Source: Akkermansiaceae bacterium
GTDB lineage: Bacteria > Verrucomicrobiota > Verrucomicrobiia > Verrucomicrobiales > Akkermansiaceae
Direction: 5' to 3'
DNA length: 50,364 nucleotides
NCBI GenBank assembly: GCA_903827375.1
Contig: CAIKHZ010000259.1
Coordinates: forward strand, 1 to 50,364
Both the position numbers and the translations under genes were made by a program. Under the pieces are notes generated by a model. That model saw only the letters and a program-made list of their open reading frames with translations, was not told the DNA's origin and made no database searches. Positions 8,109 to 50,364 of this stretch are shown piece after piece. Each line of letters opens with the position of its first letter. Within the stretch, counting starts at the first letter, position 1.

Positions 8109-8132
8109 CAACAACAAATTTAGCATTCCAGA

Positions 8133-10913: not shown

Positions 10914-10950
10914 GTGTGGAAAAAATGCCTGAGGTCAGGTATTGCGAAGC

Positions 10951-12630: not shown

Positions 12631-12637
12631 CGCGTGC

Positions 12638-14036: not shown

Positions 14037-14103
14037 CAGGCTGAAAGAAGCATCGCTGCAGCAACGTTGCGGAGATGGCTCGTCCATCCCAGCCCACTCC
14101 ACG

Positions 14104-27400: not shown

Positions 27401-27770
27401 CTGCACCGTCCGCCGCGAACGCACCAACACCCCGCTCCAAGCCCTCGTCACCTTGAATGATATCCAATACGTCGAAGCCGCCAGAGTGCTCGCCGAACGC
27501 GTCCTCAAACAGGCACCCGGTGATCCGGAACGCCTCGCCTGGCTCTACCTCCAGGTCCTCGCCCGCCAACCCAAACCCCCTGAAGTCTCAATCCTCACCG
27601 CCGCCCTAGCGGATTTTAAAACCACCTTCGAGCACGCCGCCGAAGACGCCAAAAAACTCGTCACTTATGGCGAACATGTCGCCGACCCAGCCCTCAACAT
27701 ACCTGAGTTGGCAGCCTGGACGCTGCTCGCCAGTGATACCCTCAACCTCGACGAAGCCCTCAATCGTTAA
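24468..27770 (+). CDS. Exported DUF1549–LamG-like–DUF1553 cytochrome-like protein
   Basis: 1100-residue protein with an N-terminal hydrophobic segment ([17 protein letters not shown]) acting as signal or anchor. Parts in order: planctomycete-type cytochrome c with C91/C94/H95 (CYHCHGPD) and a VMPPPA segment; DUF1549 about 195-405, ending in [12 protein letters not shown] (C380/C383/H384); a helical stretch about 430-480; a LamG/concanavalin-like beta-sandwich about 497-680 ([33 protein letters not shown]); then DUF1553 about 780-1085 ([50 protein letters not shown]). The LamG-like insert suggests carbohydrate contact. Paralogous in its DUF1549/1553 halves to the 1715-residue protein upstream. 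17 bp to the following DUF1501 gene. Confidence 0.9.
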
Positions 27771-33609: not shown

Positions 33610-36600
33610 CTACTCATTGGGGGGGGCTACTTCTCGGGTAGCAGCACCGTTGGTATCACTGAGGATGAGAATGGCAAATTTGTCGATCTGCGGCAACTCA
33701 GCGGGCTTGAGCATCTGATAGTCCAGACCGTTGGCAGGCGCGAGTGCGGGGCCGGAGCGCGGTTGCGGCACGGGCACCGGTTGGCCCGGTCCGCTGCCGT
33801 TGAGGCTGGCGTAATCGAAGCGGCCGCGGAGGTCGGTGTAGCCGTCCTTGAAGAAGCGAACGGTGCCATTTTTGAGCCTCGCGTAAACCTTGACGTACGT
33901 CTTTCCTAAGGCCCGGTCGCTGGCGCTATCGCGGGTTTCCAAGCGGCTGTAGTTTTCGGCCACAACGAGCTTGAGGGTGTTGGCATGATAGGCCTGGGCC
34001 TTGCGCTGGCCGGCGGCGACGATTTCCACCAGTACATTGGACTTGGCAAACTCGGCAGGCAGCGCCACATCGAGCGTGTCCTTGCCCTTGGGCAAGGCCT
34101 GCACGGCGGACTTGTTCGGCTTGATGATGCTGAAGCGAGAGGCGTCCTCGCTCACGAATGGATTGCTGCTGAACGAGAACTCGGGATCCATCAGGTAGTA
34201 ATTGACGGCGACCTCGCTGAGGTTCCGATAGGTCAGCGCAATCGTCTTGTTTTCCACCTTGAACTCGAAGCCCGGCTCGCTGGCGGCAAGCTCGCTCTGC
34301 TGCTTTTCGCGGTCGGGCTTGTCGCCCTTTTCGACCTTGGCGAGTTTGCCTTCGATCTCGTCGAGTTGGTTGGTCACGTCGGCAAACAGCAAGCGCCACC
34401 GCGCAATCGGATAGTCGCTGTAGCCTGCCGCAATGCCTCGGGCATCGGCAAGAGTGCCTTCATAAAAGCTGGCATAGCACTGGAAATAGTCGTGCTGAAG
34501 GTGGGTTGGCAAGCCCTTGGCAGCCACCTGGTGGAAGCGGCCGAGCGCCTCATCAACGCGGTCCTGAAGGAATAGATAGTAGGTGGCGCTCATGTTGTCG
34601 GCAGCATCTAACACTGGCTTGTGGGCCAAAATGTCCAACAATGAGCGATATTCGCCGAGCACAGCGGGGTTGGCGATGCGCGGCTCGTTGCCTAGCCGAT
34701 GGGCCCGCTGGTTGACCAACGGACTGTATTCAAGGTGCTCGTAAGCACGGCGTTCGACCGGATCGAGCCGCACGAGGCTGCAATCGAGATAGGGACCGCA
34801 CTGGGCGACGAATTCGTTCTTGTGCTGGAGCCATTCACGCAAAGCGGCCGTCTCGTTATGGAGCAATGCATAACTGTAAAGGGTCTCGTCCCAGATGTGG
34901 TGCTGGCCGAGGAAACCGGCCAGTTTCTTGAAAAACTTGGCGTCGTGGCAGCGCCAAGCGATGCGCGGCCATGCCAGTGAGGCCAGGTTATTTTGATCGA
35001 GGAAGGCAAACACGTCGGCCTCACTGCCATATTGCGAGATATAGTCCCAGGACGCCTTGTCCACCTGGGTGAGCTTGGCGACAACGTTGAAGTCGAACGG
35101 CTTGGCCGCGCCAGCGACGTTGCCATTGACGGCGACGTTGACCGGGAAGTGGGCGAATTTGTTAGCGCCGGCGGTTGCCGGGAAATAGAAATGATATTCG
35201 AACGTCTTTGTGGTGTAGGGTTCGAGGCGGACGGAGCGCGAATCTGTGGTTTTGCTGCCGAGAGCGGGCATCGCGCCTTGTGGGAGTTGCAGGAGCACTT
35301 CGGCCTTGGCTGGGGCGCTGGTTGGGTTGGTCACCACGACGTTGGCACCATACACGGTACCGGTGAGGAATTCGAAGGTGACGTATTTCTCAAATTTCTC
35401 GTTGCCTTCCATCCGGTAGCGGTCGCCAGCGCGGAAGAAACTCTGCGAGACTAACAACGGCACCGCCTGGGCATTGGCGGCTAACGGTGCAGGTGGCTTG
35501 ATTTCCTTGTGAAACACAATGAGTGGCCCACCTGCTGTGAGTGTGAACTGGCCGGCGGCGGTTTTGCCGGCATGCTTGGGCGCTTCGAATGGCAGATCGA
35601 GCACGGCGAGGGCTAGCATCATCTCGGCGAAGTTGTGACTGGCCTCTGCGACGTTAGGCGAAACAAAGGCACCATGGGCACCGTCGGCGGCCCATTTGGC
35701 GTAGTCGCGCCAGAAGCCGCTCACTGGAATTAGAGCGCCGTCCTGTTGGGTGATGCGCAGATGATAGTAATTATTTTCGGCCCATTCCTTGGTGGGGCCG
35801 AGTTCGCGGTAGTAAGCGCGGATGATCTCACGGCTTGCCGCTGCGAGGTCGCGGCCGAAGTAGTCGGTGGATTCGTCTTGGCCTTGGCCGCCAACACCTC
35901 CACCTCCCCCACCCTGCCTGAGTTGGACCTGCCGCTTGCGTGCAAACTGTGATTCTTTCTTGAGATCTTCCATTTCAGCAGGTGCCGGCGCCTCGGCGAA
36001 TGCATCCGCCGACATTTCGGCAAGCTGCTCCATCTCGCCCGCATCCCGCGCCAAGCCGTCTTTCATCTTGGCGGCCATGCGCAGGGCTGCCGGGGCTGCC
36101 TTGGCATTTCTCGTCATCGGCTGCGGTGCCGGCGGTGCGGCTGCGACTGCCGGGGCGGCCGGAGCTCCCGCCGGGCGATCGGCAGCTTTGGCTAGATTGC
36201 CCAAGGTCGTAATGCCTTTGGCGGTTTCCTTGTCTTTTTCGCGGTTGAGTGCTTCAGTTATGCCATTTTGGCCAGTGGCGGTTTCGAGGGCCCGGCCGCG
36301 GAGGGCGGTTTCGAACAGACGGTCCTGCAAATCGGGGTTGGGCGGCAGCAATTCCCACAGCTCCCGCAGGCTGCGTGCGACGTCACCCGCCCCGCCCTTG
36401 GTGCGTTGTCCTAACAACGCCCGTTCGACCACGTTCAATCTACCGTAGGCGGTGGGCAAGAGGTAGCTCTCGAGGTTGTTTTCCAGCAGGAAATCGTCCA
36501 TGAAGGTCTTGTCCTTTTTGTTAGTCAATTCGGGTTTGATGATCTTGGTGAAGAAGGCGGCGTCCTTGCGGGCGAGGAAGAGGTTCAACTCATGGCAGGC

Positions 36601-39600
36601 GAACTCGGAATACTTGGCGAGTTTTTCCCCATCCTTGAGTTGTGGCCATTGCAGGACCCAGGCAAACTTGGCGAGCGTGGGATCTCCGCTGAGGGTCGTG
36701 AACAGGGCGTGGACACTGCCGAGCGTGTCATAAGTCTCCATCTCGCTCGTTAGAATATCTGCGAGTGTGAGGGTCTTGCCCTTTTCCAGCACAGTCACTT
36801 CCTTGCGTTGGGTGAAGGGTTTGGCCGGATCGAGGTTGCGGGCGAGCCGCTGGTCGGCAAATTGCGTGGCAGCCTCGGGCAGCGCAAACGAGTGCCACAC
36901 CGCATTGGCTAGATCCTCGGCATACACTTGGACGTGCTGGCGGTCGCCCAGCGCCTTCCGGTCGATGCGGACGATTCCGTCCTTGTCAGGCAGCAAGTTA
37001 TAGATTGCCGGTTCGCTGGAGGCGAGAAAGTCGAGATTCGTATCGGCTGCTGCGCCGCCAGGGCCGGCATTGGGAGGGGTGGCGGGAGGTTCTGCTGCGG
37101 CAGCTGCGCGGCGTTCGCCGCGGCCGCCGGCGGTGGCGGCAGCCTGTTGCATGCCCTTGAGGGAAAGTTCGTCGATGCCGGTATCGCGCACTTCCCAAGG
37201 ATTGAGCAGGAGGCCCGGGCGGGTGAGCATATTGCCTGGATAGAGTTTGCCGTAGCGGCGTTCGAGGATATAACGGTATTCGTCTCCGATCTGGCGGCCG
37301 GCGGCAAACAAGTTTGGCTGTTTCGCCGGCGAGCCGGACGCCTCGCCGAAGCGTGCGAAGCCGCCAAACCCGGCAAAAAGTCCCCTGCCCGGCTCAAAGC
37401 GCGAGGCGGCGACGTGGACGCGGGTGAACAGGCCGGCGTTGGCCAGCTTGATGGTTAGGACATCCTTGTCGGTGTTGACGCCAGTGATTTGCAGAGGCGC
37501 GGTTTGCTTGAGTTCGAGGTTGCGGTGTTTTCCTAACAACCATCCAGCCACCTGTTTGCCTTCGCTCACTTGGATGGCGAAATCGCGTTCCTCGCCGAGT
37601 TGCCGCAATGAATAATCGCCGGGAGCCAGACCGGTGATTTCGACAAATCCATCCTTTGTTGTGAGTTTGGCTGCGTGGTCGGCGGTGAACGTTCCAGCTC
37701 GCACTTCCAGCAGGGAGAGCGCCGGCTGAACGCCAGCAGCCAGAACCTGTCCCAACTGCGGCACCCGCAACACGCTGCCTGCCGCCGCGTGCAATTCTGA
37801 CGACCACGTGCGTTCATCCTCATCGAGTTGCCAATTTGACTCTCGGCCGTTGGGGCATTTTGACTGGACGTTGGTGATGCCGGGCAATTCGCCAAGGGCG
37901 ATGCGGCCTTTTTCGTCGGACTTGAGGGCTACGCTTTGCGGGTTGGCAAACCCGCGTTGACGGAAAGTGAAGACCACTTGCTGGTCGGCGACGGCCTCAC
38001 CATTTTTGCCTAGCAATTCAAACACATAGTTGCCGGCGAATTTTGCCAGATGGCCGTCGTTGGTGGCGTCGGTCTTGTCAATGCCATTGAGCGACCAGGT
38101 GTGGGAGGCGCTGAGGTCGCGTTTTTCGCCGCCAGCGCTGAGCAGGTCGATCTTTCCGGTTAGAGTAACCGTGAGTTGGGCGAGTCGCTCGGGGACATTG
38201 AGTGTGTGGGTGAGGACGCTGGCGGCGCTGAGTTTAAGGTCTTTGACTTCGCGGGTGGTGGCGATGCCGTCGAGCGTGGTCGAGGTGATGGTAAGTTTGG
38301 GTTCGGAAATGAGCGCGGGATCGAGGTGAGACTCACCGAGCATGAGCGTGGTGCGCAGGGCCAGGGTGGCTTCGCGCCTGGCTAGCAATTGTTCGCGCTC
38401 GATGTGGAACTGGGCGTCGAGGCGGTAGTCCTCGGCGTGGTGCTCGAATTGGGTTAGGGTGGCGAAGGTGCCCGCCGGATCAGTGAGGACCACTTGACGC
38501 ATTCCCGGCTGTTTGGTGAATGGCACCACGATTCGACCTAGTTTTTCGTCGCGGCTGAGCTTGCGCCCGTCGAGCCAAACCACGGCATCCTTGACCGGTT
38601 GGCACTTCTCATCGAGCACTAACAACAAATCGCCACTCGGGCCGGTTTGCTGGATAATCTGCCACTGGCCGACGCGAAGCAAGGCGCGGCTGCTGCGGCC
38701 GGTGCCGATGAATTCAATGATCCAAGCGCCGCGCTGGCCCTTGAGTTCGGGAAATTTGAATGTTTGGCGAACGCGTTTGAAGGGGCCAGTGTCGAAGCTG
38801 TGAGTCTGTTCGCTGTTAGCCACGAGACCGTCGAGATTGAGGTCGGTGTTGAGCTGGCGCTTTTGAGTTAGAAAAAAGTTAAGTGCGTTGAGTTCATAGA
38901 TTTTGACGATAAGTTTGGAGGTGTTTTTGACGACCACATCAAACTGTGCGACGTCACCTGGTTGGAAGAGTGGCGGGTTGGTGGCAGGAAACTCGATGTC
39001 CACACGTTCCTTGAGTTGTTGAAAGGCGCTCGGATTGAGCAGTGAGGCCCAGCGCTGGGCGTCTCCGTGGCCGCCGACGATGAGAGCCTCGGCCAGCAGC
39101 GGTTTGAGCCATGAATCCAACACATAACTCGTGTAGGGTTCCATCATGGCTTCGCCGAGGGCTGCTGGATTGGCCTTGGCGGCTTGATCGAAGAGAGCGA
39201 GGAAATACTCGCGCACCAAGGGTTCGTCGTTAGGCACTGGGCGGTGAACCACCAGTGCGGCGCTGAGGTCGGCGTTGAGGTCGCAGCGCGGGTCGTTGGC
39301 GGCCGCAGTTTTCTCCAACCACTGAGGGTTCACATAACCGAAGCCACGCGGCAGTTTTAGATATTCGAGGAAGCGTGATGGGTCGTACACCCCCTTCATG
39401 CGATCGTGGTCGAGCCGTTGATAGAGCACCTGAGCCTTAAGTGTGTTGAAGGCAGGAGGCAGTGTCTTGGCGTAGGCCCACAGATTTTCGAGCCAAGCCT
39501 CGCGTTCTGCGGGGTCGAATGCGACATCGACGTCCTGTGATGGGGAAAGTTTGCGCAAGCGGGAATAGACGAAGGCCGAGTTGGTGGCGAGGGTGGGAAT

Positions 39601-40308
39601 GGCTTGAACGAGGGTATCGAGCTGTGCGGGCAGCAAGGCACGATGAATGGAGAACTCACCGAAGCCTTTGGATTCCGGGGTTTTGAGGTCGGCGATGACC
39701 AGTTCGGGCAGATTCGGCACATCCGGCCGTTGGAGTTTTGAAAGCAGCGCTCGGCGCTGTTGGGGGCTGAGCGCGGCCTTACTGCGCACCAAAATCTCGA
39801 GGGCGTTTAGCGTCAATCCGCCTAGCCCTTGGTCGTGGGCGAGGGCATCGCGCTCAAACACGTCGCGGGCTACCGACTTTGGGTCCAGCGCGCTGGGAAG
39901 GTTGGGCTTTTGGTCGCGCACCTCCTGCTGGTGATTGTGGGTGACGCCGAGTCGGCGCTTGAGGTAATCGATCGTCTGTTGGGGGGTGGCATCGTAATCG
40001 AGCAATGCCTGGCGGTTTTCAATGATGCGGCGACGGGCGATTTCGTCTGGAAAGCGCTTGCGCCATTGTTCCATGAATTCAGTGAATTTGGCTGGGTTGC
40101 GGCTGCTCTGGTAATGCAGGCAGTGGTAAAAATAGTAGTCTTCACTGCCAGGCACCAATTCGCCAAGGGCCTTTTCGCGGTCGGCGGCAAGAGCAAAGCG
40201 CTCGATGAAGCCAATTTCATTTTCGGCGCGCAGAGGAGGCGGGGCGAAGCTGCCAGCAGTCAGAACGATGGCGGCGAGCCATGAGAGAATCGACGGGCGG
40301 GATTTCAT
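33610..40308 (-). CDS. Giant exported alpha-2-macroglobulin-like protein
   Basis: 2232-residue protein with a Sec signal (ILSWLAAIVLTAGSFAPPPLRA). Residues about 30-450 are helical and repeat-like. From about 455 a series of beta domains resembling macroglobulin (MG) domains follows (QPGDVAQFDVVVKNTSKLIVKIYELN, DLLLVLDEKCQPVKDAVVWLDG, FAGNYVFELLGKNGE). Low-complexity Ala/Pro/Gly linkers occur near 1066, 1386 and 1467. A helical region and a final beta domain (TYVKVYARLKNGTVRFFKDG, TDLRGRFDYASL) close it. I find no CGEQ-type thioester, so covalent protease trapping is not expected. It may be an envelope protein binding peptides or proteases; function is inferred only. Its last codons contain a run of eight C. 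The ATG at 40308 gives the signal peptide. Lies alone behind a 303-bp gap. Confidence 0.7.
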   Translation of the reverse strand: MKSRPSILSWLAAIVLTAGSFAPPPLRAENEIGFIERFALAADREKALGELVPGSEDYYFYHCLHYQSSRNPAKFTEFMEQWRKRFPDEIARRRIIENRQALLDYDATPQQTIDYLKRRLGVTHNHQQEVRDQKPNLPSALDPKSVARDVFERDALAHDQGLGGLTLNALEILVRSKAALSPQQRRALLSKLQRPDVPNLPELVIADLKTPESKGFGEFSIHRALLPAQLDTLVQAIPTLATNSAFVYSRLRKLSPSQDVDVAFDPAEREAWLENLWAYAKTLPPAFNTLKAQVLYQRLDHDRMKGVYDPSRFLEYLKLPRGFGYVNPQWLEKTAAANDPRCDLNADLSAALVVHRPVPNDEPLVREYFLALFDQAAKANPAALGEAMMEPYTSYVLDSWLKPLLAEALIVGGHGDAQRWASLLNPSAFQQLKERVDIEFPATNPPLFQPGDVAQFDVVVKNTSKLIVKIYELNALNFFLTQKRQLNTDLNLDGLVANSEQTHSFDTGPFKRVRQTFKFPELKGQRGAWIIEFIGTGRSSRALLRVGQWQIIQQTGPSGDLLLVLDEKCQPVKDAVVWLDGRKLSRDEKLGRIVVPFTKQPGMRQVVLTDPAGTFATLTQFEHHAEDYRLDAQFHIEREQLLARREATLALRTTLMLGESHLDPALISEPKLTITSTTLDGIATTREVKDLKLSAASVLTHTLNVPERLAQLTVTLTGKIDLLSAGGEKRDLSASHTWSLNGIDKTDATNDGHLAKFAGNYVFELLGKNGEAVADQQVVFTFRQRGFANPQSVALKSDEKGRIALGELPGITNVQSKCPNGRESNWQLDEDERTWSSELHAAAGSVLRVPQLGQVLAAGVQPALSLLEVRAGTFTADHAAKLTTKDGFVEITGLAPGDYSLRQLGEERDFAIQVSEGKQVAGWLLGKHRNLELKQTAPLQITGVNTDKDVLTIKLANAGLFTRVHVAASRFEPGRGLFAGFGGFARFGEASGSPAKQPNLFAAGRQIGDEYRYILERRYGKLYPGNMLTRPGLLLNPWEVRDTGIDELSLKGMQQAAATAGGRGERRAAAAAEPPATPPNAGPGGAAADTNLDFLASSEPAIYNLLPDKDGIVRIDRKALGDRQHVQVYAEDLANAVWHSFALPEAATQFADQRLARNLDPAKPFTQRKEVTVLEKGKTLTLADILTSEMETYDTLGSVHALFTTLSGDPTLAKFAWVLQWPQLKDGEKLAKYSEFACHELNLFLARKDAAFFTKIIKPELTNKKDKTFMDDFLLENNLESYLLPTAYGRLNVVERALLGQRTKGGAGDVARSLRELWELLPPNPDLQDRLFETALRGRALETATGQNGITEALNREKDKETAKGITTLGNLAKAADRPAGAPAAPAVAAAPPAPQPMTRNAKAAPAALRMAAKMKDGLARDAGEMEQLAEMSADAFAEAPAPAEMEDLKKESQFARKRQVQLRQGGGGGGVGGQGQDESTDYFGRDLAAASREIIRAYYRELGPTKEWAENNYYHLRITQQDGALIPVSGFWRDYAKWAADGAHGAFVSPNVAEASHNFAEMMLALAVLDLPFEAPKHAGKTAAGQFTLTAGGPLIVFHKEIKPPAPLAANAQAVPLLVSQSFFRAGDRYRMEGNEKFEKYVTFEFLTGTVYGANVVVTNPTSAPAKAEVLLQLPQGAMPALGSKTTDSRSVRLEPYTTKTFEYHFYFPATAGANKFAHFPVNVAVNGNVAGAAKPFDFNVVAKLTQVDKASWDYISQYGSEADVFAFLDQNNLASLAWPRIAWRCHDAKFFKKLAGFLGQHHIWDETLYSYALLHNETAALREWLQHKNEFVAQCGPYLDCSLVRLDPVERRAYEHLEYSPLVNQRAHRLGNEPRIANPAVLGEYRSLLDILAHKPVLDAADNMSATYYLFLQDRVDEALGRFHQVAAKGLPTHLQHDYFQCYASFYEGTLADARGIAAGYSDYPIARWRLLFADVTNQLDEIEGKLAKVEKGDKPDREKQQSELAASEPGFEFKVENKTIALTYRNLSEVAVNYYLMDPEFSFSSNPFVSEDASRFSIIKPNKSAVQALPKGKDTLDVALPAEFAKSNVLVEIVAAGQRKAQAYHANTLKLVVAENYSRLETRDSASDRALGKTYVKVYARLKNGTVRFFKDGYTDLRGRFDYASLNGSGPGQPVPVPQPRSGPALAPANGLDYQMLKPAELPQIDKFAILILSDTNGAATREVAPPNE

Positions 40309-40611
40309 GATGGGCGGATTGGTTGATAATGCTGAGATCTGAGAGCCGCAGACGAGTATTGGCATGCGGGAGAAGGCGCAGACTGGTGCCGCACGCTATA
40401 ACGACACACCAAGCGGGAAATTCCTAGAAAATTTCTGCGGCCGTGAATCCTGCTTCATGCTCCATTTTGGCGCTAAGCCCTCGTAAGACCCGGAGCACAT
40501 GACTGCCCATGCTTGAAGAATGCCCCGGGCTGGGCGCATGCTGCAGTCACTTTTGCATGGGCACAGCGGCTGGAGGCACGGAGTCACGGCCTGCCGCGAG
40601 ACACGGAAACG
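40309..40611. other. Intergenic region, 303 bp, upstream of the macroglobulin-like gene
   Basis: No gene seen. It contains an inverted repeat GAAATT/AATTTC (40417-40422 and 40430-40435, 7-nt spacer), about 110 bp upstream of the minus-strand start at 40308, that could be an operator. A TATAGC-like -10 on the minus strand lies downstream of it, but no good -35 is paired. No clear terminator was found for the gene ending at 40612. Confidence 0.5.
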
Positions 40612-43600
40612 TCAGTGCTTCAAGGTGGCCGTCGGGCGGAAAAAGCGCGCCGGACGGTCGTAGGTGATGGATTTAGTGAACTCACCGCCGCCTGCGTCGC
40701 TGGCAGTGAATCCGGCGGGCGCAGACCAAGTGGAAAGGTTGTCGGACACCTCGAAATTGACGTTGATGAAATCCTTGTAAGCGGCGGGCCAGTTGGTGAT
40801 GAGCCAAGGCGTGCCTAGGCCGTCGCGAACGAGGCGCAGGTTGGTGAAAATCAGCGGCGTGGGCGGGCCGGCGGGAGAACTGGCGGCATTGCGCGGATCA
40901 GTGCCGCTGAGGTATTCTTCACCTAACGAATAAGGCGAACCGTCGCCATGCGTGTCGGTGCCATAAGTGAGGGTACCGAAGTGGCGCAGTTCCCACGAGT
41001 CGGCAAGCAGGTCGCCGTCGCTGTCGGCATCCATGGGAGAAGGCAGCGAGTTGACCACGAGGCTGGTGACTTCAAGCGTTGCATAGCTGCCGAGTGCCGG
41101 AAGATCGTTGAAGGCGGTAACACTCAGTGCTGTGCCTGCGGGCAGGGCGATATCGGTGGGCAGTGCTACGGGCGAGTGGCGCGAATCAAACAGAGCATAG
41201 GTGGCGGTGCCGGCGGCGTTTTGCACGAGTGTCAGGCCGGTGGGGCTTGCCGTGCTGCGCACGTAAAGGATGATAGCGGTGCTGCTGCGGGTGGGCACAT
41301 TGGCCAGGATGGTGCTGCGGGTGGTATTAGCGAGGTCGAGCTCGGTGGCGATGACACCGCTGCCGCTCTGGTATTCGGTCGGGAGCACGCCGATACTCAC
41401 ATAGGTTTCCAAGGCAGCCAGCGGGGCCGACAAGTTTGCGATATCGGCATCGGCGAGGGCTTGCGAACGGGCATAGACGTCGCGGGCAAGTTTGCGCAGG
41501 GCGGCGGGGCCGCTGCCAGTTGCGTTGATGGCCGAATCGAGGTAGCTGACCAGAGCGGACATGCGCATCACGGGTGCGGCTGGGTATCCGGGCGAGGGCA
41601 AGCGCAGATCGCGTGGGCTGACGATGCCGGTGAGCGTCAGGCCATCACCGCCGGGTGTGATGCCTCGGGCGATGAATGCGTCACTTAAGATTTTGCGGGC
41701 TAGCAGCGCGGAAAGGGTCGTCTCGGGGGAAAGGGCTGCGCTGACGTAAGGCTGACCGTTGCGATTGGCAGCGGCTACGAACGTGGGAATCCAAGCGGCG
41801 GCGGCGGCGCTGGCACCATCGATTGGGAATGTTAGATTTTGCTGGGATGGGCTCCAAGCATCATCGAAGCCGGCGGTGGTGGCGATGCCCTTCCAGTTGG
41901 TGGTGGTATCGCTCCAGTTGCAGCCACCGAAGCTCCAGCTGGTACCGGTGGCTACCCGAGTGCCCTGAGTGCTGCCAAAACTCCAACCGTCCTCACTAGG
42001 CACCGGAATCAGGGCCGCCATCTCACGGCCGTAGTGCGTGGTAAGAGCCCCATTGGTGGTGCTGTAATTCATCGGCGTGCGGGCAATCAGGTAGCCCCGA
42101 TCCCCCGTGGCGTTGAGCGCCTGAACCCGGGCATAGTAGATGGCCGCGCCACCAGAGCCGGTCACCGCGCTGCCTAGCGGATTGCCCAGCGCATCGCACA
42201 GGCTCATCAAGGTGCCGTCGCGCGGCGCGCCGAGAGTGCCGCCGCCGAGGGATTCCATTTTCATCGAGGCATCCACCACGAGCGTGCTCATGGACGCCGC
42301 ATTGCTAGCTGGAGTGCTGGAATTGTTGTTAGGATCGGATCCTGCGGCCAGTTCAGCGGCATCACTGAAACCATCCCCGTCGCTGTCCGGGCCGGCGGCT
42401 GGATTGAGACCCTTGGCCACTTCGATAAAGTCAGGCACGCCGTCCCCATCCTGGTCTTGCAACGCCGGTGGCTTGCTGAAGCTGTAGCTGGCGCTACGAG
42501 TGGGGGAGATGCCGACGCCCGGTTTGTTAGCATAATAGAAAACACTGCCGCCGGTAAATATCCACGGCGGGGAGGTGCTGTTCCATAGTTGGAAGGCACC
42601 GCTGCTGCCGAGCCGATAGAACACACTGGTGCCTGCACTCATGCCGCTAAAGGTCAACTGGATGCCGTGGCTGTACGTTCCCGCCACCGGCGAAATCGTC
42701 ACATCTTCCACCACCGAACCGAGACTGGCATCAAAGGTGACCATCGAAAACTGCGCGTTGAGCTGGTTGATGGCGGTACCCGCAACAGCGCTGCCCGCAT
42801 CGCCGACAACTTGCGCGGAAGATGCACCGATGCCTTGGGCGGAATCGACAAAGGTGGCAGCTTGCGCGGTGACGTTGAACGGACCGCCGCCCACCGTGAT
42901 GCCGGTACTCCAGTCGGCAGCCTTGTAGCTTCGCAGCGTGGTGACCGAGTCGCTTCGGTAGATCGGTCCAGAAAGCAGCATCACATTGGCATAACTCGCA
43001 TAAACATTGATCACCGGAAGATGAGTGATGCCCGTTTGCACCCAGCCAGCTCCTGTGTTGGCGAAAGTGACCGCCAGGTTCGATGGTTGTCCAGCGGCAG
43101 ATGCAAACAACAAGTGAAATTGGGCGCTGCCGGCCATCGGCACCATCCCGCTAACCACACCCGCTGCCCCACTTGGCAATATACTGATAGGCGCGCTGAA
43201 GCCGCTGCCACTGGTGTAGCTGTAGATGGCGATGCTCCCGTCAGTGAAGCGCAACAGGCACTTTTGGCCCGTGGTGTCGGTGAGTGGCACAGCCTGTGCC
43301 AGAGGGCTGCCAAAGGTGGTGGCAGCATCGGCACTCAGGCCCCAACCGGCCCCGCCGGAGGTGATGCGGCGAACATGCACCAGAGGGGATCCTGGTACGT
43401 AAAACAGCAGGTCTATGTTGGGCGATTGAAACGCCACCGCCGTGTAACGCGTCCCTAGCGGCAGCGAATTACCCACGATTTTCTCGGTGAACCCAACACC
43501 CGTTAGGCCATAGGCATGAAAACTATCGTTAGGCCCGTCGCTGCGGATGAAGCCCATGAACGGAGGGCTGCCGACGGCGGGAACGAGCGGGTTGGCCTGG

Positions 43601-44184
43601 GAGACCGGGAGATCCGGGCAATCGCCGCCATCAAGGAAACTCCACGTCCCGGCATTGGAACGGATTTTGCGCAGCGCATACCCCAAAACAGGATCGTTGG
43701 CCACGAGGATGCCGAGGTCGTCCTCAGCCGTGGGCGAGGCCCCGCTGGGAATGTCCAACGCCGCCATCGTCACCGGACCTATGCCGGCATCGGCGATGGT
43801 CTTGGGCTCAATATATCCTCCGCTGTTAGGCGAAAGGACCTGTACGCGGTTCTGCGCCGGGGCGGTCACCGCAAAGCTGTCGCAGGCCACACCGCTAAGC
43901 TTGCCCACAGCCATGCCGGTGACTTCAGCGGCGCCAGTGGCACGGGCGGCAACAAATACCGGCGGACCGGTTGTGCCATCGCCGCTGCCAATCCGATAGA
44001 GACCGGTCAGCTTGTCCAGCACGAGTACGTCCTGCTTGCCATCGCCGTTGAAATCGGCGCTGGCACAAAACTCGCGCTCAGTCTCAAACACCGGAGAGGA
44101 GGCCAAGGCGCTGGTGGCCAGGCCAAGCAGCAGCCACAAGCCGTGGCGGATGGCGGTGGCCGGGAAAGATGGGTGAAGGTTCAT
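40612..44184 (-). CDS. Exported FG-GAP/TSP3/chitobiase-like multidomain protein
   Basis: 1190-residue protein with a signal peptide (HGLWLLLGLATSALASS). The first 450 residues look like an FG-GAP/VCBS beta-propeller (ADFNGDGKQDVLVLD near residue 42 and further blades). A chitobiase/hexosaminidase C-terminal-like domain follows about 495-568 (GTYSHGIQLTFSGMSAGTSVFYR). Next are thrombospondin type-3-like Ca-binding repeats about 575-620 (DQDGDGVPDFIEVAKGLNP, DSDGDGFSDAAELAAGSDP) and a globular mid-region about 640-960. A second TSP3-like repeat (DADSDGDLLADSWELRHFG) precedes a C-terminal beta-sandwich. Probably a Ca-stabilised surface or matrix protein. No sorting anchor (LPxTG or PEP-CTERM) is seen. 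It is 34 bp behind the FN3-like gene, so co-transcribed. Confidence 0.78.
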   Translation of the reverse strand: MNLHPSFPATAIRHGLWLLLGLATSALASSPVFETEREFCASADFNGDGKQDVLVLDKLTGLYRIGSGDGTTGPPVFVAARATGAAEVTGMAVGKLSGVACDSFAVTAPAQNRVQVLSPNSGGYIEPKTIADAGIGPVTMAALDIPSGASPTAEDDLGILVANDPVLGYALRKIRSNAGTWSFLDGGDCPDLPVSQANPLVPAVGSPPFMGFIRSDGPNDSFHAYGLTGVGFTEKIVGNSLPLGTRYTAVAFQSPNIDLLFYVPGSPLVHVRRITSGGAGWGLSADAATTFGSPLAQAVPLTDTTGQKCLLRFTDGSIAIYSYTSGSGFSAPISILPSGAAGVVSGMVPMAGSAQFHLLFASAAGQPSNLAVTFANTGAGWVQTGITHLPVINVYASYANVMLLSGPIYRSDSVTTLRSYKAADWSTGITVGGGPFNVTAQAATFVDSAQGIGASSAQVVGDAGSAVAGTAINQLNAQFSMVTFDASLGSVVEDVTISPVAGTYSHGIQLTFSGMSAGTSVFYRLGSSGAFQLWNSTSPPWIFTGGSVFYYANKPGVGISPTRSASYSFSKPPALQDQDGDGVPDFIEVAKGLNPAAGPDSDGDGFSDAAELAAGSDPNNNSSTPASNAASMSTLVVDASMKMESLGGGTLGAPRDGTLMSLCDALGNPLGSAVTGSGGAAIYYARVQALNATGDRGYLIARTPMNYSTTNGALTTHYGREMAALIPVPSEDGWSFGSTQGTRVATGTSWSFGGCNWSDTTTNWKGIATTAGFDDAWSPSQQNLTFPIDGASAAAAAWIPTFVAAANRNGQPYVSAALSPETTLSALLARKILSDAFIARGITPGGDGLTLTGIVSPRDLRLPSPGYPAAPVMRMSALVSYLDSAINATGSGPAALRKLARDVYARSQALADADIANLSAPLAALETYVSIGVLPTEYQSGSGVIATELDLANTTRSTILANVPTRSSTAIILYVRSTASPTGLTLVQNAAGTATYALFDSRHSPVALPTDIALPAGTALSVTAFNDLPALGSYATLEVTSLVVNSLPSPMDADSDGDLLADSWELRHFGTLTYGTDTHGDGSPYSLGEEYLSGTDPRNAASSPAGPPTPLIFTNLRLVRDGLGTPWLITNWPAAYKDFINVNFEVSDNLSTWSAPAGFTASDAGGGEFTKSITYDRPARFFRPTATLKH

Positions 44185-44218
44185 GAGGGGTGAGGTGAGT
44201 GGTTTACTGGATAAAATG

Positions 44219-47200
44219 TTAGAGCGGAACATCCACAGGGTTGGTCACAATGACCCGCTCGATTTCCTTGCTCGGGTTGAAGCGAACGAGCAGGTACTTG
44301 TAGGTGGCGCCCTTGAGCACGGGTTGGCGGTCTAGAAGGAAAATATCGTGATCGAAGTTGCTGGCACTGGCTGCCAGCGGGCTGTCGGCACGGTGCAAAA
44401 TGGTAATGAATGGGTCGGTCACCTTGGTGGTCGGGCCGCTTGCAAATTGGGCGATTTTTTCCATCATGGGAGACACTTGGACGATATCGCCGGAGACACT
44501 GGAAAAGTTGGCATTGGCGATCTGCACCCGGTACAAGGCGACGGGGAAAATGCAACCCGGGAGGGTTTCGTTAGGTTCAGCAAGACCCACGGCATCATTG
44601 ATATAGAGGAATTGTTCGGGGGACCGCAACGTGCTGATGCTGAAAGCGACGCGCACTGCGGATGATGAGCCCTGGAGGTCTTTGGTGATGACGGTGGATG
44701 TCGCGTTGGTGGCAGGATCAGCGTATTCGCCGATGCGCACGGCATTACCCTTCCACGGCGAGAGCTTGCCAATATTCAGGTGGGTGGCGCTGATGCCACT
44801 GTGAAAACTTGCCTGACCCGGCAGCGGGCGCTGCGGCCATGGAACCTGAGCGGAGAAGCTAAGCAAAGGGAGGGTGTAGCTGTAGGTTTCCAGATTACTG
44901 AATGCGCCCATGGTGCGGCTGCCATAAGTACCGGGGCCAACGGCACGGATCATAACGCTGTAGGTGTCACTGGTGGACACCGGCAGATCCGCGCTGAACT
45001 GCGGCGTGCCGTCAACGCTCAGATGCCGAGCCACGGAGGATTGAAACACCGCAAAGTCAAGCCCATCAGCACCTTCTATGCCGGCGGCCGTGTTGGGGTG
45101 GGTGGCAGCTTGATCGACGGAGAGGCTGCTGCCGGTATTGGCCGCCGCCGCACCGGAGGCGCGGGCGACCCACACTTCAAAGCGCTCAACACCGGCAATG
45201 TTGCAGAACCAAGAAACGTGCATCTTACCGGCAATGTAAGGCGCGACGTTGGTGATCGGCTCTAACATCGGAGTGGCTAGGAAGCTTGAGTCGTAGTGTT
45301 CAAGGCACTCGCCTTGCTGGGTCATCGGGCTGGGATTGCCGTGCTCATCGTAGAGTTGGAGGTAATAACAGAGTGTGCAATAACTCGCAGGCGGTGATGT
45401 GTCCGTCCAGGTCACCGGCGCGATGCTTCCGGCGGGGATTTCGCCTTGTGCCATGAGTGTTTGCACACTGTTATTGACGCGGCGATAGATCTTCCACTCG
45501 CGTGAGCCGACACTCGGAATAAACACCCCACTGAGGTCCGTACTCAGGCCTGTGGTCGGATCCACGGCCTCATCGCGCCAACCACAATCCGCCCCGCTCA
45601 TCAGACTGCTCGCGAGCGTGGCACTCCACTTCATCTGCAGCCGCCGGTCGGCCTGCGGCGTGAATTCACCTTGCCCGCTGGCAGGCACCCAGACTGACAC
45701 CTTGCCGCCTGTCGTGCTCACGCGACAATAAATCACACCCTTGCCAGTGTAGTCCGGCAACGTCTTTCGCAGTTGAGCCTGCAAGGTGCGAGCGGCACTC
45801 AGGGTGAATGTCGCCCGGCCTAACATCACCTCGCGGGTGGCGTCAGGTTGGAACTTCCACTCGGCCCATGCGAGCCCCTTGGTAAGCGGGCTGACGCTGA
45901 GCAACTCGAGATGCCCCTGATCGGCGGGCAAGCCGCTGGCTGGGATCTGGGTGGTGCCGGCATACGTCAGATTGGGCCTGTAACAATTGATCAGGATGTC
46001 GCCGGTGGCACCGCGCGGACCTTGGCGGTCGCGCAGCACACCCCACACCGGCGCACTGTTGCCGGAGATGTTGGTGCTCACGCTAGAGTCGGCAGCTCGC
46101 ACGGTGTAGAAGTAGGTTTTACCGTTGTCGGCGGGCCAGTTAGGCATCGCATAATCGTTTTCCGCCCAGGCCGGCGGGGCGCTGCTGCCGTCGTCAACAA
46201 AACTCAGTTGAGAGGCGGGAAGCACCGCAATGAGGTTGTGGTCCGGTTTTCCAGAGACCGGATCAAGATGTGTGCATTTGCCGGGAATCTCATTCGGTGT
46301 TCGCCAACGATAGACATAGTATGCGCTGATGGATTCACCCGCCTCAAGGACCGGCGGGTGCCACTCGATGATGAAGTGCTGGGCGTGGGTGGTGCCGCTG
46401 TAGGTGGCCTGATTGCGCACCTGCACCTTGCGCGGTGCCCCGGGCGGCAACCGGTCGCAGAGCGTCACCAGCGTGCCCTGCGATGGAGTGCCTCCGTGCC
46501 CCAACAAATCCCGTGCCACCACAAAGTAGTAGAACTGGTCGTTATCGGTGAAGGGCACGCCCGCGCTGCGGAAGCGGTTGTTGTCGTCATCCAGATAAAC
46601 CGTTTTGTTAGTGAGATCAGCCGCCTCGGCGGCGCTAAGCGTGACGGGGGTGAGGATGGCCAACGTGTTGACCTTTTTGGCGGCGGGCTCGGCGGCCAGC
46701 AGCGCGGTGCTGGCGGGCGGCGCGCTCTGCCAGCCATGCGCCAAGGTGGCGGCCTTGGTCACGCGATAGACGTCAAAGCCGTAGTGTAGAGGAGCGAGGT
46801 CGCGAAGGTTGTTAGGCGTGGCCCAGCGAAGGGTGGCGTTGAGGTTGCCTTTGGCCGAGGCGTCGGGAAGTTCCACCGGTGCGCCCGGTGCCGGCAACAC
46901 CAGTGGCGCGGCCGGGTCGAGGGTCAGGCGGCCGAGCACGCCCAGATCGGCAAGTTTTGTGCTATCAAAGTCGCGCAATTCATAGGTGAGCATGCCCAAG
47001 CCGGTAATTTTTTCGGCGTGAGCCAAGCCGGCGCACAAAGCGACGGAGGGTCGCTGGCGGGCGAGCAGCATCACGCGCCTCATTTTGTCGTCATGTCCGA
47101 CGGCGTTGCAGATGAGGGATGACATGAGTTGTGGAGGGGCGATGGCAGCAGCCGGAGATGCGCCCTGCAACAACTCGCTGAGCACGGCCTGTAGCTCAGT

Positions 47201-47548
47201 TAGGTTTTCACCAAGACTGCCCGCCCGGGCCATCAGCGAAGCGATTGTGTGGACGTCTCCCTCTGGTTGGATTACCGCCACCCGTGAGTACGGGTTGGCC
47301 GAGGCAGCGTTGCCAGTTTTTCGATAGACTGCGATCTGTTTGCCGGAAAGCAGTGCCGGATCGGTCGGTTGCAGGGCGATCCAAGCGAACGTCTCCCCGC
47401 CAAACTTACTGGTGGTGCCGGCGACCGTCAGGGATTTCGAGATACCTGATTGGGCGGGGGCTGCCGGGGATGTTAGAAAAATCGCTGTGGCCAGCAGCAC
47501 GGGCACTCGCCAAGAGCTGCAAATCACACGGGTGAGGAGGCGCGACAT
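44219..47548 (-). CDS. Exported FN3-like multidomain protein
   Basis: 1109-residue protein. The ATG at 47548 gives a signal peptide (VPVLLATAIFLTSPAAPAQS); an upstream ATG at 47596 would extend it by 16 residues. The first 200 residues are mixed and include a helical stretch. Several fibronectin type III-like domains follow, recognisable by tryptophan/tyrosine patterns (LHYGFDVYRV, ISAYYVYRWRTPNEI, TYFYTVRAADSS, VERFEVWVARASG). Between them are regions without recognised domains. The C-terminal 150 residues (YRVQIANANF…KYLLVRFNPSKEIERVIVTNPVDVPL) also read as beta sheet. It carries no catalytic motif that I recognise. It lies between the partial helical/beta gene (129-bp gap) and the FG-GAP gene (34-bp gap) on the same strand, suggesting one surface assembly. 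Confidence 0.75.
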   Translation of the reverse strand: MSRLLTRVICSSWRVPVLLATAIFLTSPAAPAQSGISKSLTVAGTTSKFGGETFAWIALQPTDPALLSGKQIAVYRKTGNAASANPYSRVAVIQPEGDVHTIASLMARAGSLGENLTELQAVLSELLQGASPAAAIAPPQLMSSLICNAVGHDDKMRRVMLLARQRPSVALCAGLAHAEKITGLGMLTYELRDFDSTKLADLGVLGRLTLDPAAPLVLPAPGAPVELPDASAKGNLNATLRWATPNNLRDLAPLHYGFDVYRVTKAATLAHGWQSAPPASTALLAAEPAAKKVNTLAILTPVTLSAAEAADLTNKTVYLDDDNNRFRSAGVPFTDNDQFYYFVVARDLLGHGGTPSQGTLVTLCDRLPPGAPRKVQVRNQATYSGTTHAQHFIIEWHPPVLEAGESISAYYVYRWRTPNEIPGKCTHLDPVSGKPDHNLIAVLPASQLSFVDDGSSAPPAWAENDYAMPNWPADNGKTYFYTVRAADSSVSTNISGNSAPVWGVLRDRQGPRGATGDILINCYRPNLTYAGTTQIPASGLPADQGHLELLSVSPLTKGLAWAEWKFQPDATREVMLGRATFTLSAARTLQAQLRKTLPDYTGKGVIYCRVSTTGGKVSVWVPASGQGEFTPQADRRLQMKWSATLASSLMSGADCGWRDEAVDPTTGLSTDLSGVFIPSVGSREWKIYRRVNNSVQTLMAQGEIPAGSIAPVTWTDTSPPASYCTLCYYLQLYDEHGNPSPMTQQGECLEHYDSSFLATPMLEPITNVAPYIAGKMHVSWFCNIAGVERFEVWVARASGAAAANTGSSLSVDQAATHPNTAAGIEGADGLDFAVFQSSVARHLSVDGTPQFSADLPVSTSDTYSVMIRAVGPGTYGSRTMGAFSNLETYSYTLPLLSFSAQVPWPQRPLPGQASFHSGISATHLNIGKLSPWKGNAVRIGEYADPATNATSTVITKDLQGSSSAVRVAFSISTLRSPEQFLYINDAVGLAEPNETLPGCIFPVALYRVQIANANFSSVSGDIVQVSPMMEKIAQFASGPTTKVTDPFITILHRADSPLAASASNFDHDIFLLDRQPVLKGATYKYLLVRFNPSKEIERVIVTNPVDVPL

Positions 47549-47677
47549 GAAGAGGGGCTTAGGCAGAGCGATTGGAGTAACCGGGATGGAGCTCATAACT
47601 TATTGCTGGGAAGGAAAGAAGGGTCGATGCGGATCAAATGTTGGAAAAAATTTGCCAGACTGGTGATTGGGCTTCGC

Positions 47678-50364
47678 TCAGTAGTCCACCGACCAGCCGC
47701 CGGCGTCGGTGTAGCTGAAGTTGATGGTGAAGGAGGCCTCAAGGCAGATCGGGCAGTAGCCGGCTTTGCCATACATGCTACCGGTGCCGGCGAAGGCATA
47801 ACTATCGCCACTCTTGAGGCCGACGAGCGATACTTCGCCGCCGATTTCGATTGCGCAGAGGGCTTCGCCATAGATGCCCATGGTGAGTCTGCCGCCGTAG
47901 GTTGGGCCTTCGACGAAGTAGAAGACACCGGCGCCGGCCTTGCCGCTGATATTGAACAGGCAAGTGCCGGTGCCATAGATTGGGAAGGTGGCCTCGCCAT
48001 AGACATAGATGCCGGTGAAGCTGGCCATGGTTAATACTTGTGCGACGAGCGGATCGATCATCTCCAACGGCTCTCTGGTACAGCAGTGGCCGAGAAAGAC
48101 ACCCCCTGACATGGCATACTCGCCAAACTCCATGCCAATGGTAGCCGCCAGATAATTCTCATCGCCGCCAAACATGCAAGCGGCACCCAGCGCGGTGATT
48201 TTGAATGTCTCGAAGCTGAGGGTACCGGACGTCATTTCAAACATGCCTCCCAGGCCCACGGGGGCACCGGTGCTGCTGTTGAGCGCAAACTTCACCCCGA
48301 CGTCGGCATGCACACTGTCGCCGCTCATCCCCACCGTGCCGAGAGGAACATCAAGCGCCCCGATCGTTACCTCGGTGAGCGGGTCGCCAGAGCCATTGCA
48401 GCCCGACGGGCCATCCGAGTCGAGTTCCTTGATTTCCAGATAGGCGGCTATCTTCAACGCATCGGGTGCCTTCATCTCAAACTTGCCGTCGATGCGCAAC
48501 TCATCGAGGCTGTCGCCATTGATATGTGCAAAGCCATCCAATGAGCCGCTGCCGCAGTAGTCGGCCACATCGCCGAGCATGTTATTGATGGAGTCGTCCA
48601 GGCCGGCGAGCGCCTCGGACAAGGCGTTGCGGATCATCTGGTTGAGGGAGGCGAAGGCGGTATCCACGGCGTTGTTGAAGGCACCCTGCAAGTCATAGAT
48701 GCGCTCCTTGATCGCCTCTTGGATGTCGGCCACAAACTGGCTGCCGAAAATAGCATCGGTGAGTGCTTGCGCGATTTGGGCGCTGATGTCATCGACCAGA
48801 TCGTCGATGTCGGCCATATCTTCAGTGGTTAGATCATTGATCACCCGTTCGGCGATTGCGGCAGCGGCAGTGCATGCGGTTTGCAATTGGGTGGAGGCGG
48901 CGGTGATGATGTCGCTGAGTTCTTTGGCCATGCCGGAGGCCCCTTCCAACTCGACGCGCACCTGGGTGACCAGCGTTTTAACCTGGGTGAGCGCCTGGGT
49001 GACGGCTTCCAGCGTCGGTTCCAGCTCCGCGAGCAAGTCATTGATTTTGGTGGCCACATCGGACGAACTCACTGCAGTGGCCAAGGTATCGATCAAGGCG
49101 TTGGCCAAGCCCTTGAAGATGGCGCGCTCAGCAGGCGAACTGCCAACACTGAATTTTTCCAGCAATCCATGAACCTCGGCTATGGCCGCGCCGGTGTCCG
49201 GATCCGTGTTGATGGTGCTGATAACCGAATCAATGGTCTGCTCGATTTGTTTCAGTTTGTCGTGGATTTCCTTGAGTGTGCTACCAGCCGTGTTGACGTT
49301 GCTCTTGAGCTGGTTGAGCGCGGTGATCATATTGTTGGAACCCATGAGGAAATAGCTATCTAGCAGGTTCGCAAGTTCCAGCGGGGTAAGCCCGTCGCTG
49401 GTGCTACCGGCGTTCTTGATCTCGTTGCGCACCTTGGTGGTAAACTCCTCTATGACAGGGGTGGTCAGGCTGCTAAGGATGGTGCCAATGGTGTCTTCCA
49501 TCTTGTCACTGAGCATCTTTGTGAAGTCATCTATGCCATTTTCCAACGAACGGAACACCGCGTCGCCAGCGGCATCCACAAACGCGCTCGAGGCACCAGT
49601 GGCTTCATCCAACGCGTTGAATGCGAGGCTGCTTATGTTGATGGTGGGCACTCCCTCATACTGCACGCCAAAGGTGATTTCGGCGTTCTTGGCATCCATG
49701 TATTTGAGGGTGTGCTGGGTATTGAGCACTAACAGGTCTTGAGTGATCGGGGCGAATCCAGAGAAGCTGAAAGTTGTGTTAGCCCAGACCAAAGGATAGT
49801 CGAAGTTAACGACTCCGAGCCATAGTTTTTGAGCACGCGCCAGATAAGTTTCAGCGGTGCTTCCGCGATAATCGGCGAGGGTGGCGGCGGCGTCACGACC
49901 GGTGTTGTTTTCATCGAAGCAGGCGACGTCGAACGGGGACAGTGAGTGCTCAAACCACCCGTGTGCCGGCCAACCGCCCATCACATAAATACTGGATAGA
50001 GCCTCGGGATCCGGGGTGCCGGCCACCGAATTGCCACCGCGCGTCTGCAGATGCACCTGCATGTCATTGAAAAACGGCACGTCCAACTTGCCGAACAAAC
50101 TCCAGAACCCCTCGCCATCCGCCGTCGGGTCGTGATTGAAGTAAGCTCCCTGGGTCGGGAAAAACGTGTAGGTCTCGCCGGTGGTGCCGGTCATGGTTAG
50201 ATCGCCGGGCAGTTGCAGGCGGGTCGGCACGGCGTCGCTGGCATGATCGATTGGCCGGGAGAAATAGCCGCTGTTCTCGATACCGAGGGAACCGGTGAAA
50301 GCGGTGGTGAAATGCGATGCGTGGCCGCTGAAGCCCAGCACCATGGTGGTTCCAGCCCCCGGCA
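47678..50364 (-). CDS. Very large secreted protein, helical region plus beta C-terminus (5' end outside window)
   Basis: The frame is open through the window edge, so at least 895 residues are visible and the start lies beyond 50364; an ATG at 50344 is internal. The first 250 visible residues are beta-type (TTAFTGSLGIENSGYF, FSFSGFAPITQDLL). About 450 residues follow with long Ala/Leu/Thr-rich amphipathic helices suggestive of coiled coil (KLKQIEQTIDSVISTINTD, LEAVTQALTQVKTLVTQVRV, ISAQIAQALTDAIF). The last 250 residues are Gly-rich with alternating hydrophobic strands and at least seven cysteines (including CPIC), ending in GGWSVDY with a terminal aromatic residue. An outer-membrane barrel or stacked beta scaffold is possible, but unproven. 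It is the visible first gene of a three-gene minus-strand cluster. Confidence 0.72.
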   Translation of the reverse strand, partial: PGAGTTMVLGFSGHASHFTTAFTGSLGIENSGYFSRPIDHASDAVPTRLQLPGDLTMTGTTGETYTFFPTQGAYFNHDPTADGEGFWSLFGKLDVPFFNDMQVHLQTRGGNSVAGTPDPEALSSIYVMGGWPAHGWFEHSLSPFDVACFDENNTGRDAAATLADYRGSTAETYLARAQKLWLGVVNFDYPLVWANTTFSFSGFAPITQDLLVLNTQHTLKYMDAKNAEITFGVQYEGVPTINISSLAFNALDEATGASSAFVDAAGDAVFRSLENGIDDFTKMLSDKMEDTIGTILSSLTTPVIEEFTTKVRNEIKNAGSTSDGLTPLELANLLDSYFLMGSNNMITALNQLKSNVNTAGSTLKEIHDKLKQIEQTIDSVISTINTDPDTGAAIAEVHGLLEKFSVGSSPAERAIFKGLANALIDTLATAVSSSDVATKINDLLAELEPTLEAVTQALTQVKTLVTQVRVELEGASGMAKELSDIITAASTQLQTACTAAAAIAERVINDLTTEDMADIDDLVDDISAQIAQALTDAIFGSQFVADIQEAIKERIYDLQGAFNNAVDTAFASLNQMIRNALSEALAGLDDSINNMLGDVADYCGSGSLDGFAHINGDSLDELRIDGKFEMKAPDALKIAAYLEIKELDSDGPSGCNGSGDPLTEVTIGALDVPLGTVGMSGDSVHADVGVKFALNSSTGAPVGLGGMFEMTSGTLSFETFKITALGAACMFGGDENYLAATIGMEFGEYAMSGGVFLGHCCTREPLEMIDPLVAQVLTMASFTGIYVYGEATFPIYGTGTCLFNISGKAGAGVFYFVEGPTYGGRLTMGIYGEALCAIEIGGEVSLVGLKSGDSYAFAGTGSMYGKAGYCPICLEASFTINFSYTDAGGWSVDY

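Follow-up and report, generated by a model that had tools for sequence, protein, structure and literature searches.

A conserved three-gene unit of giant, probably exported proteins in Verrucomicrobiota with a candidate outer-membrane barrel

Introduction

Three adjacent minus-strand open reading frames (40612-50362) encoding very large proteins, designated here A, B and C, close the window, i.e. the whole stretch of 50,364 nucleotides that was analysed. The preliminary description of this DNA regarded them as same-strand giants of secreted type, possibly a surface or appendage system, with no anchor accompanying them. The locus raises a twofold question: do the three genes constitute a unit, and, if so, what could hold their products at the cell surface? 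Both parts have been addressed through in silico analysis of the locus, of its relatives and of structure models.

Organization of the locus and its second copy

The genes were delimited as follows:

47678..50362, minus strand: gene A, C-terminal 894 codons (ORF call; 5' part cut off by the end of the contig)
44219..47596, minus strand: gene B, 1125 aa from the first ATG (ORF call; signal-peptide-like N-terminus, tandem FN3-like modules)
40612..44232, minus strand: gene C, 1206 aa from the first ATG (ORF call)

The contig ends at base 50364, where the A frame is still open, and A thus comprises at least 894 aa. By homology, the window A corresponds to the C-terminal half of longer A proteins; where the ORF is complete, in other loci, the median length of A is 1866 aa (quartiles 1797-1936, n=90 ORFs). 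For B and C, internal methionines near 47548 (1109 aa) and near 44184 (1190 aa) are the more likely starts, as they stand directly before signal-peptide-like stretches. With these starts the overlap between B and C is gone, and the lengths are those given in the preliminary description, whose three adjacent giants are confirmed as ORFs. The size of the trio unit is roughly 12 kb. The G+C content of the trio stretch is 56-62% in 2 kb steps, vs 56-63% in the remaining window.

The source genome (370 contigs, 96% complete) contains a second trio in the same gene order on another contig, C139. Its A' protein has 1395 aa and is 35% identical to the window A in the alignment, B' has 1147 aa (34% identity to the window B), and C' has 1204 aa (30% and 28% identity to the window C over two segments). 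A' represents a short form devoid of the N-terminal part present in longer relatives, and a comparable short A of 1353 aa is encoded at locus L058. The paralogous trio in the same order, together with the conservation of this order elsewhere in the phylum, indicates that the arrangement is not a product of chance.

Gene order and co-inheritance

Gene order was analysed in 119 pooled loci: the window, C139, 40 loci of the order (picked from A matches) and 77 loci from the genome scan described below. One locus lacking an A ORF (L144) was dropped and loci sharing the last 200 residues of A were removed, which left 101. In a six-frame profile search, B was counted if its match started -400 to +2500 bases from the point where the A match ends; for C, the start had to lie 2000 to 7000 bases past that point. 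B follows A in 91 of the 95 loci with room (94/101 overall), and C follows B in 79/79 loci with room, plus 2 of the 15 classed as without room. Four loci deviate: a permuted order, B-C-A, is found in L084; C is followed by A in L079 and L086, and in L079 B sits upstream of C, just outside the fetched stretch, so that the order is B-C-A as well; in L067 A stands alone. Because the loci were found via A and the profiles derive partly from the same loci, these counts measure the companions of A. The fixed adjacency spans loci from several orders and classes.

B by itself was covered by a separate genome search. A (query: two A proteins) is present in 47 of 239 genomes of the order, in 18 of 48 genera, a count that includes fragments in G178 and G224 (E about 7e-10). 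B (query: 29-row B alignment) is present in 46/239, and 45 genomes carry both. A occurs without B in G124 and G178, genomes that are 80% and 79% complete, and B without A solely in G037, where the match (E 7.7e-4 over 87 profile positions) is probably another FN3 protein. The genome-wide search for C covered the source genome. Verrucomicrobiota that possess the genes keep A, B and C as a set, with few departures from one order, and the co-conservation that the preliminary description had proposed to examine is clearly borne out. Over 73 trios, pairwise identities are correlated (A-B 0.92, A-C 0.88, B-C 0.92), as is also expected from common ancestry alone.

In a draw of genomes across the phylum, A was matched in 26/387, or 23 after removal of weak helical-region matches in short frames (G085, G300, G397); the distribution of the trio is thus patchy. 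A scan of the genomes of 84,980 species with three peptide patterns yielded 81 relatives; 80 of them were retained, making up 77 loci. Going by title, all but one are Verrucomicrobiota, broadly defined, and include Verrucomicrobiaceae, Opitutales, Kiritimatiellales, Pontiellaceae, Pedosphaera and Victivallales; the exception, L134, is an uncultured bin titled Marinovum, possibly mis-binned. The peptide-pattern step favours close relatives, and hence the scan is no proof of absence outside Verrucomicrobiota.

No fixed fourth gene was found beside the trio among 92 locus groups (flanking ORFs of at least 100 aa). The largest neighbour cluster, whose longest member is the PSCyt/PSD1 protein of the window, reaches 15/92 groups, with varying offsets and in either orientation, and therefore no neighbour cluster can be called fixed.

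Proteins B and C

At E <= 10 the window B has no Pfam match, and among 29 B rows the fn3 family is matched in 2 (best E 0.0031). The structure model of B (mean pLDDT 82.8, pTM 0.48) matches FN3 tandems in Foldseek with E 2.7e-11. The region recognized by VIA fold comparison is:

44870..46909, minus strand: B residues 230-909, FN3-matched stretch (VIA fold comparison)

Within this stretch, residues 232-521 align with the FN3 pair 4yfg_A (Z 13.1, rmsd 6.9, 189 aligned), residues 229-381 with the single titin FN3 8os3 (Z 10.2, rmsd 2.6, 102 aligned) and residues 525-910 with Ihog FN1-2, 2ibb (Z 10.8, rmsd 19.1, 188 aligned). The FN3-like modules named in the preliminary description are thus supported for B by the model and by both fold comparisons, and B is best described as a predicted tandem of such modules. 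It resembles FN3 tandem proteins in fold and differs from them in rarely matching Pfam fn3 and in a first module with helices between the strands (residues 115-188 of the model).

Three elements were recognized in C:

43963..44064, minus strand: C residues 57-90, FG-GAP-like repeat (FG-GAP_3 E 0.0019, FG-GAP E 0.012, neither reaching the gathering score)
42325..42387, minus strand: C residues 616-636, bacterial TSP3 repeat (PF18884 E 1.3e-9, 38.1 bits vs cut-off 25)
40615..41094, minus strand: last 160 residues of C, conserved C-terminal module (alignment of 13 C termini)

Among 28 C rows, one of which is a 180-aa C' fragment, TSP3 occurs in 19 and FG-GAP_3 (E <= 0.01) in 8; many other Pfam families come from a single member, e.g. 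a very long C. For the modules previously attributed to C, the TSP3 repeat is corroborated by Pfam and the FG-GAP repeat weakly so, while the chitobiase-like module (CHB_HEX_C_1) is absent from the window C at E <= 10 and present in 3/28 C rows. The C-terminal module is Asp-rich with an 'FYR/FFR' motif, and similar stretches are located on other contigs of the source genome. Like TSP3 surface proteins, C matches the NCBIfam models MtsD and CglD locally, over about residues 590-636 only; it is unlike them in scoring 31 and 16 bits vs cut-offs of 800 and 400.

Architecture of protein A

The AlphaFold2 model of the window A (894 residues; mean pLDDT 76, pTM 0.47) is divided into three regions:

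49655..50362, minus strand: A residues 1-236, beta-rich domain (AlphaFold2 model)
48557..49636, minus strand: A residues 243-602, helical region (AlphaFold2 model; weak coiled-coil-type matches)
47681..48556, minus strand: A residues 603-894, about 16 antiparallel amphipathic strands, candidate outer-membrane beta-barrel (model, strand statistics, conservation)

The helices followed by a beta C-terminus, as read earlier from the letters, are supported by this model. A 54-residue helix (residues 542-595) closes the helical region, the strands are mostly 11-14 residues long, and the window A ends in Tyr. Six conserved cysteines (positions 655, 761, 801, 836, 870 and 873) are kept in 89-96% of those of the 73 trios having a letter there; on the model they lie at turns or turn ends, a pair on one rim and the remaining four on the opposite one. 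Both these cysteines and the short last strand would be atypical of an outer-membrane barrel.

The window A has no Pfam match above cut-off. The Pfam matches of 24 A rows are mostly to coiled-coil-type families, each with few members; at E <= 0.01 they include no barrel, autotransporter or Vitellogenin_N family. No SLH family appears among the Pfam matches of A rows, and no TonB receptor or plug family in the 24 rows (Pfam) or in two A proteins (NCBIfam). A PDB sequence search with A returned 498 sequences at E <= 1; the best 60 of the 498 all fall in the helical region and include apolipoproteins, Cry6Aa, spike and tektin, matches which are read as reflecting composition.

Several candidate origins were rejected. 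A has no match in phage records and no relative in IMG/VR (two peptide patterns), and B has no match in plasmid records. A defence system was set aside, the PADLOC matches lying only in the helical region of A (residues 312-602), where they are read as coil, with none for B or C. A tail tape-measure was likewise dismissed: the PHROGs matches of A are confined to the helical region (E 6e-4 at best for the window A, 7e-5 for a relative). In the same library C has one match (E 0.022), in the TSP3 stretch, and B none.

Outer-membrane barrel or lipid-binding sheet

The cell setting is diderm: Omp85 was found in 57/57 genomes checked and the porin family PF07396 in 54/57. Besides a barrel, the strand-rich C-terminus of A could be a soluble domain binding hydrophobic ligands or lipids, in which case A, B and C would constitute a secreted or periplasmic carrier complex, a reading we hold to be rather unlikely.

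The last residue of A is aromatic in 55 of 98 ORFs (Y 29, F 24, W 2), vs 2/81 for B and 2/76 for C, a frequency that speaks for a barrel and against the carrier; among the control rows, 6/24 BamA and 4/16 porin sequences, possibly misframed or truncated, have a last residue other than F, Y or W. The strand density of the domain, 5.88 per 100 columns, equals that of BamA barrels of the same order (5.88; porins 5.09, POTRA 4.14), but it is not specific by itself, since the helical part of A reaches 5.04. Among the five sets compared, the A strands have the largest amplitude (3.82) and the least charged hydrophobic face (0.035).

In a single-sequence strand scan, the median z was 2.4 for 91 A C-termini, 0.9 for A N-terminal windows, 0.4 for B windows and 0.0 for C windows. 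Barrel controls gave 2.6 (OmpF), 1.7 (FadL), 2.2 (Ag43 barrel), 2.1 (FhuA barrel) and 3.6 (BamA barrel), and non-barrel controls -0.1 (BamA POTRA) and 0.0 (Ag43 passenger). The strand domain of the window A scores 1.6, the same value as A 1-240 and as a part of C, and that of the paralogue A' scores 3.1.

Face conservation points in the other direction. In the A strands, conservation is higher on the hydrophobic than on the polar face (entropy difference -0.36, p 0.00012), and the strands of the model itself give the same direction (p 0.004). The control values are -0.54 for soluble POTRA, +0.05 for BamA barrels and 0.00 for porins (+0.20 in 'best9', a subset of 5 sequences); B windows range over +0.13, -0.56 and -0.24. 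In this respect A is like POTRA and unlike BamA barrels and porins, which would fit a buried or lipid-binding sheet; the controls for the scan, the density and the face conservation contained no lipid-transfer protein.

Fold comparisons are divided as well. The VIA list for A is headed by outer-membrane barrels, e.g. V. cholerae OmpT (Z 12.3, rmsd 10.1, 223 aligned), a row tied with many others; as the superposition on porins has an rmsd of about 10 A, the modelled sheet is no clean barrel. The lowest Foldseek E-values for A belong to MTP (2.0e-4, probability 0.18) and ApoB100 (2.5e-4, probability 0.72), and the succession of beta domain, helices and amphipathic beta-sheets over 894 residues resembles MTP. 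Against the carrier stand these low probabilities and the lack of a global superposition in the same matches (TM-scores 0.03-0.12, 0.06 for MTP; rmsd 40-62 A), as well as the missing vitellogenin family in the 24 A rows. No lipid-transfer chain is found among the 50 best VIA rows, a comparison that aligns no chain above 3,000 residues and thereby leaves out both listed ApoB100 chains. Moreover, large lipid transfer proteins such as MTP, ApoB and vitellogenin have an alpha-alpha superhelix fold, unlike the long helices of the A model.

Taken together, an outer-membrane barrel is favoured over a soluble lipid-binding sheet, not strongly. If A ends in such a barrel, the missing anchor may lie within A, and the earlier statement that no anchor accompanies the proteins becomes doubtful.

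Export and the proposed complex

A signal-peptide-like core was identified by a simple hydrophobicity rule in 63/70 A proteins (the 5' end of the window copy is off the contig), 62/73 B and 58/73 C proteins, in agreement with the secreted character first ascribed to them. Internal hydrophobic 19-mers occur in 5/73 A, 2/73 B and 9/73 C proteins.

The mean pairwise identity of whole proteins over 73 trios is 31.4% for B, 30.2% for A and 26.4%, the lowest, for C. Within A it is highest in the strand domain (40.7%), followed by residues 1-242 (33.1%), the part upstream of the window A (23.0%) and the helical region (22.8%). Such a gradient would fit outer parts that vary more than a conserved base, though it is no proof of this arrangement.

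We consider it quite possible, at a little under even chances, that A, B and C form one extracytoplasmic complex at the cell surface, anchored via A; contact among the three is suggested by gene order, and none of the findings points to an appendage. In the proposed sequence of events, each protein would be exported by Sec, and the BAM machinery would insert A into the outer membrane through its C-terminal barrel of about 16 strands. Upstream of the barrel, A would have its long helices and, towards the N terminus, a further portion of roughly 1000 residues or more. B, a putative rod of FN3-like modules, and C, with TSP3 modules of the calcium-binding type and FG-GAP-like modules, would both stay at the surface through binding to A, with C lying farthest out and touching neighbours, particles or polymers.

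A more far-reaching version sees in the trio a new kind of surface-assembly system, known up to now almost exclusively from Verrucomicrobiota: A, with its own disulfide-rimmed barrel of a new family, would anchor itself and present or export B as the FN3-like rod and C as the calcium-binding-type tip, with no other dedicated machinery. To this version we give about one chance in four in plain terms, i.e. it is unlikely as it stands.

Alternative explanations

Apart from the carrier discussed above, the three exported proteins might be unrelated to each other and have nothing but an operon in common, with no complex formed. This is improbable, given an adjacency fixed in several orders and classes, the near-identical genome distributions of A and B, and a set kept together even when permuted to B-C-A.

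A little less probable still is a complex for the uptake of large polymers, in which A would be the pore and B and C the surface binders, like a SusCD pair. The candidate barrel, the FN3-like and FG-GAP-like modules and a glycoside hydrolase elsewhere in the window (8136-10913) are compatible with such a role; against it, no enzyme, transporter or regulator is fixed next to the trio in the 92 locus groups, and TonB receptor and plug families are missing from A in the searches described above.

Toxin delivery or contact-dependent inhibition is very improbable: systems of this type typically employ giant modular proteins that are secreted, and A has one NCBIfam effector match (XopZ, E 0.024, 12.6 bits vs cut-off 1300), which lies in the helical region and is read as a coil match, but no RHS, haemagglutinin-repeat or toxin family was found by Pfam at E <= 0.01 (24 A, 29 B and 28 C rows), the C-termini are conserved and not swapped (A ends in its most conserved part, and the 13 C termini align), and no small immunity-like gene is fixed downstream (92 locus groups, ORFs of at least 100 aa).

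Relation to known systems

PMC10540074 deals with two autotransporters of Akkermansia, whose passengers are of the sialidase and adhesin type. A resembles Type V autotransporters (e.g. Ag43) in its signal-peptide-like start, its large N-terminal part, the helix before the C-terminal strand-rich domain and the frequent aromatic last residue. The differences relate to the number of strands (about 16, in contrast to the 12 of an autotransporter barrel), the six conserved cysteines, the long helical region, the two fixed partner genes and the lack of a family match in 24 A rows.

Deinococcus SlpA/SDBC and Veillonella OmpM are tethers in which a helical stalk leads into an outer-membrane barrel at the C-terminus, an order of parts shared by A with its candidate barrel. 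In contrast to these tethers, A has no SLH family match, is accompanied by the partner genes B and C, and matches the fold weakly (SDBC chain 8agd_A in the Foldseek list, E 0.46, probability 0.47).

Neither A nor B corresponds to a named family in Pfam, NCBIfam, PHROGs or PADLOC, and no description of the trio was found among the open-licence papers listed, judged on titles and abstract openings. The parts are of known kinds (FN3-like modules, TSP3, a possible barrel), and the fixed trio is not described within the literature searched. That a unit of fixed order persists in scattered members of this environmental phylum, and that neither A nor B is covered by the family libraries searched, strongly suggests a dedicated machine that has yet to be named. 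The trio is carried by the named strains Roseibacillus ishigakijimensis, Roseibacillus persicicus and Luteolibacter marinus, which makes it experimentally testable. If A is an outer-membrane anchor, the trio would show how these bacteria, which have been little studied, build large surface structures without the known secretion or adhesin systems.

Other genes of the window and genes around the second trio

Further genes in the window that holds the trio of giant exported-type proteins A, B and C, and genes around the second, same-order trio of this genome (contig C139, flanking stretches L007 and L008), are as follows:

33610-40365, minus strand: 2251-residue exported-looking protein, next gene downstream of C
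15814-21006 and 24468-27770, plus strand: two large PSCyt1/PSCyt2/PSD1 proteins (domain matches)
8133-10913, minus strand: Glyco_hydro_106-type protein, alpha-L-rhamnosidase family (domain match)
L007:9527-11662: 357-residue protein and radical SAM-like protein, upstream of the C139 trio
L008:3095-3775: 226-residue protein, downstream of C' on C139

The 2251-residue protein has no Pfam match at E 1e-3; judged by eye, its sequence recalls the bacterial alpha-2-macroglobulin type, for which it is a candidate. The sizes of the ORFs following C at other loci indicate that a counterpart of this gene is not fixed beside the trio. One of the two PSCyt1/PSCyt2/PSD1 proteins carries WD40 repeats and the other a Laminin_G_3 domain; the neighbour cluster including the protein at 15814-21006 was found in 15 of the 92 locus groups, at scattered offsets. 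On C139, visual inspection suggests a putative radical SAM enzyme upstream of the trio and a putative DUF1573-type protein (226 residues) downstream of C', and two further locus groups have small proteins resembling the latter after their trio.

Variation in trio organization

The length of C is usually 1140-1220 residues, whereas it is only about 550-790 residues in trios L071, L072, L073, L076, L078, L149, L150 and L151. Instead of the usual A-B-C order, the genes are arranged B-C-A in L084, and C-A was seen in L079 and L086. In L159 a single ORF of 2315 residues (7199-14146) joins most of A in frame with the last part of B, lacking the strand domain of A and the start of B; it represents either a genuine deletion fusion or an assembly artefact. 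All three genes are also present on contig L134, whose title names the alphaproteobacterium Marinovum; either mis-binning or transfer may account for this.

Several A loci may occur in one bin. The Opitutales bin Super_Day6_Bin.11 contains five (L109, L119, L129, L136 and L160), four of them with A, B and C, the fifth ending at a contig edge. Another such bin, CSSed165cm_301R1, contains four (L115, L116, L123 and L165), some of which reach contig ends. The multiple A loci of these two bins are a lineage expansion.
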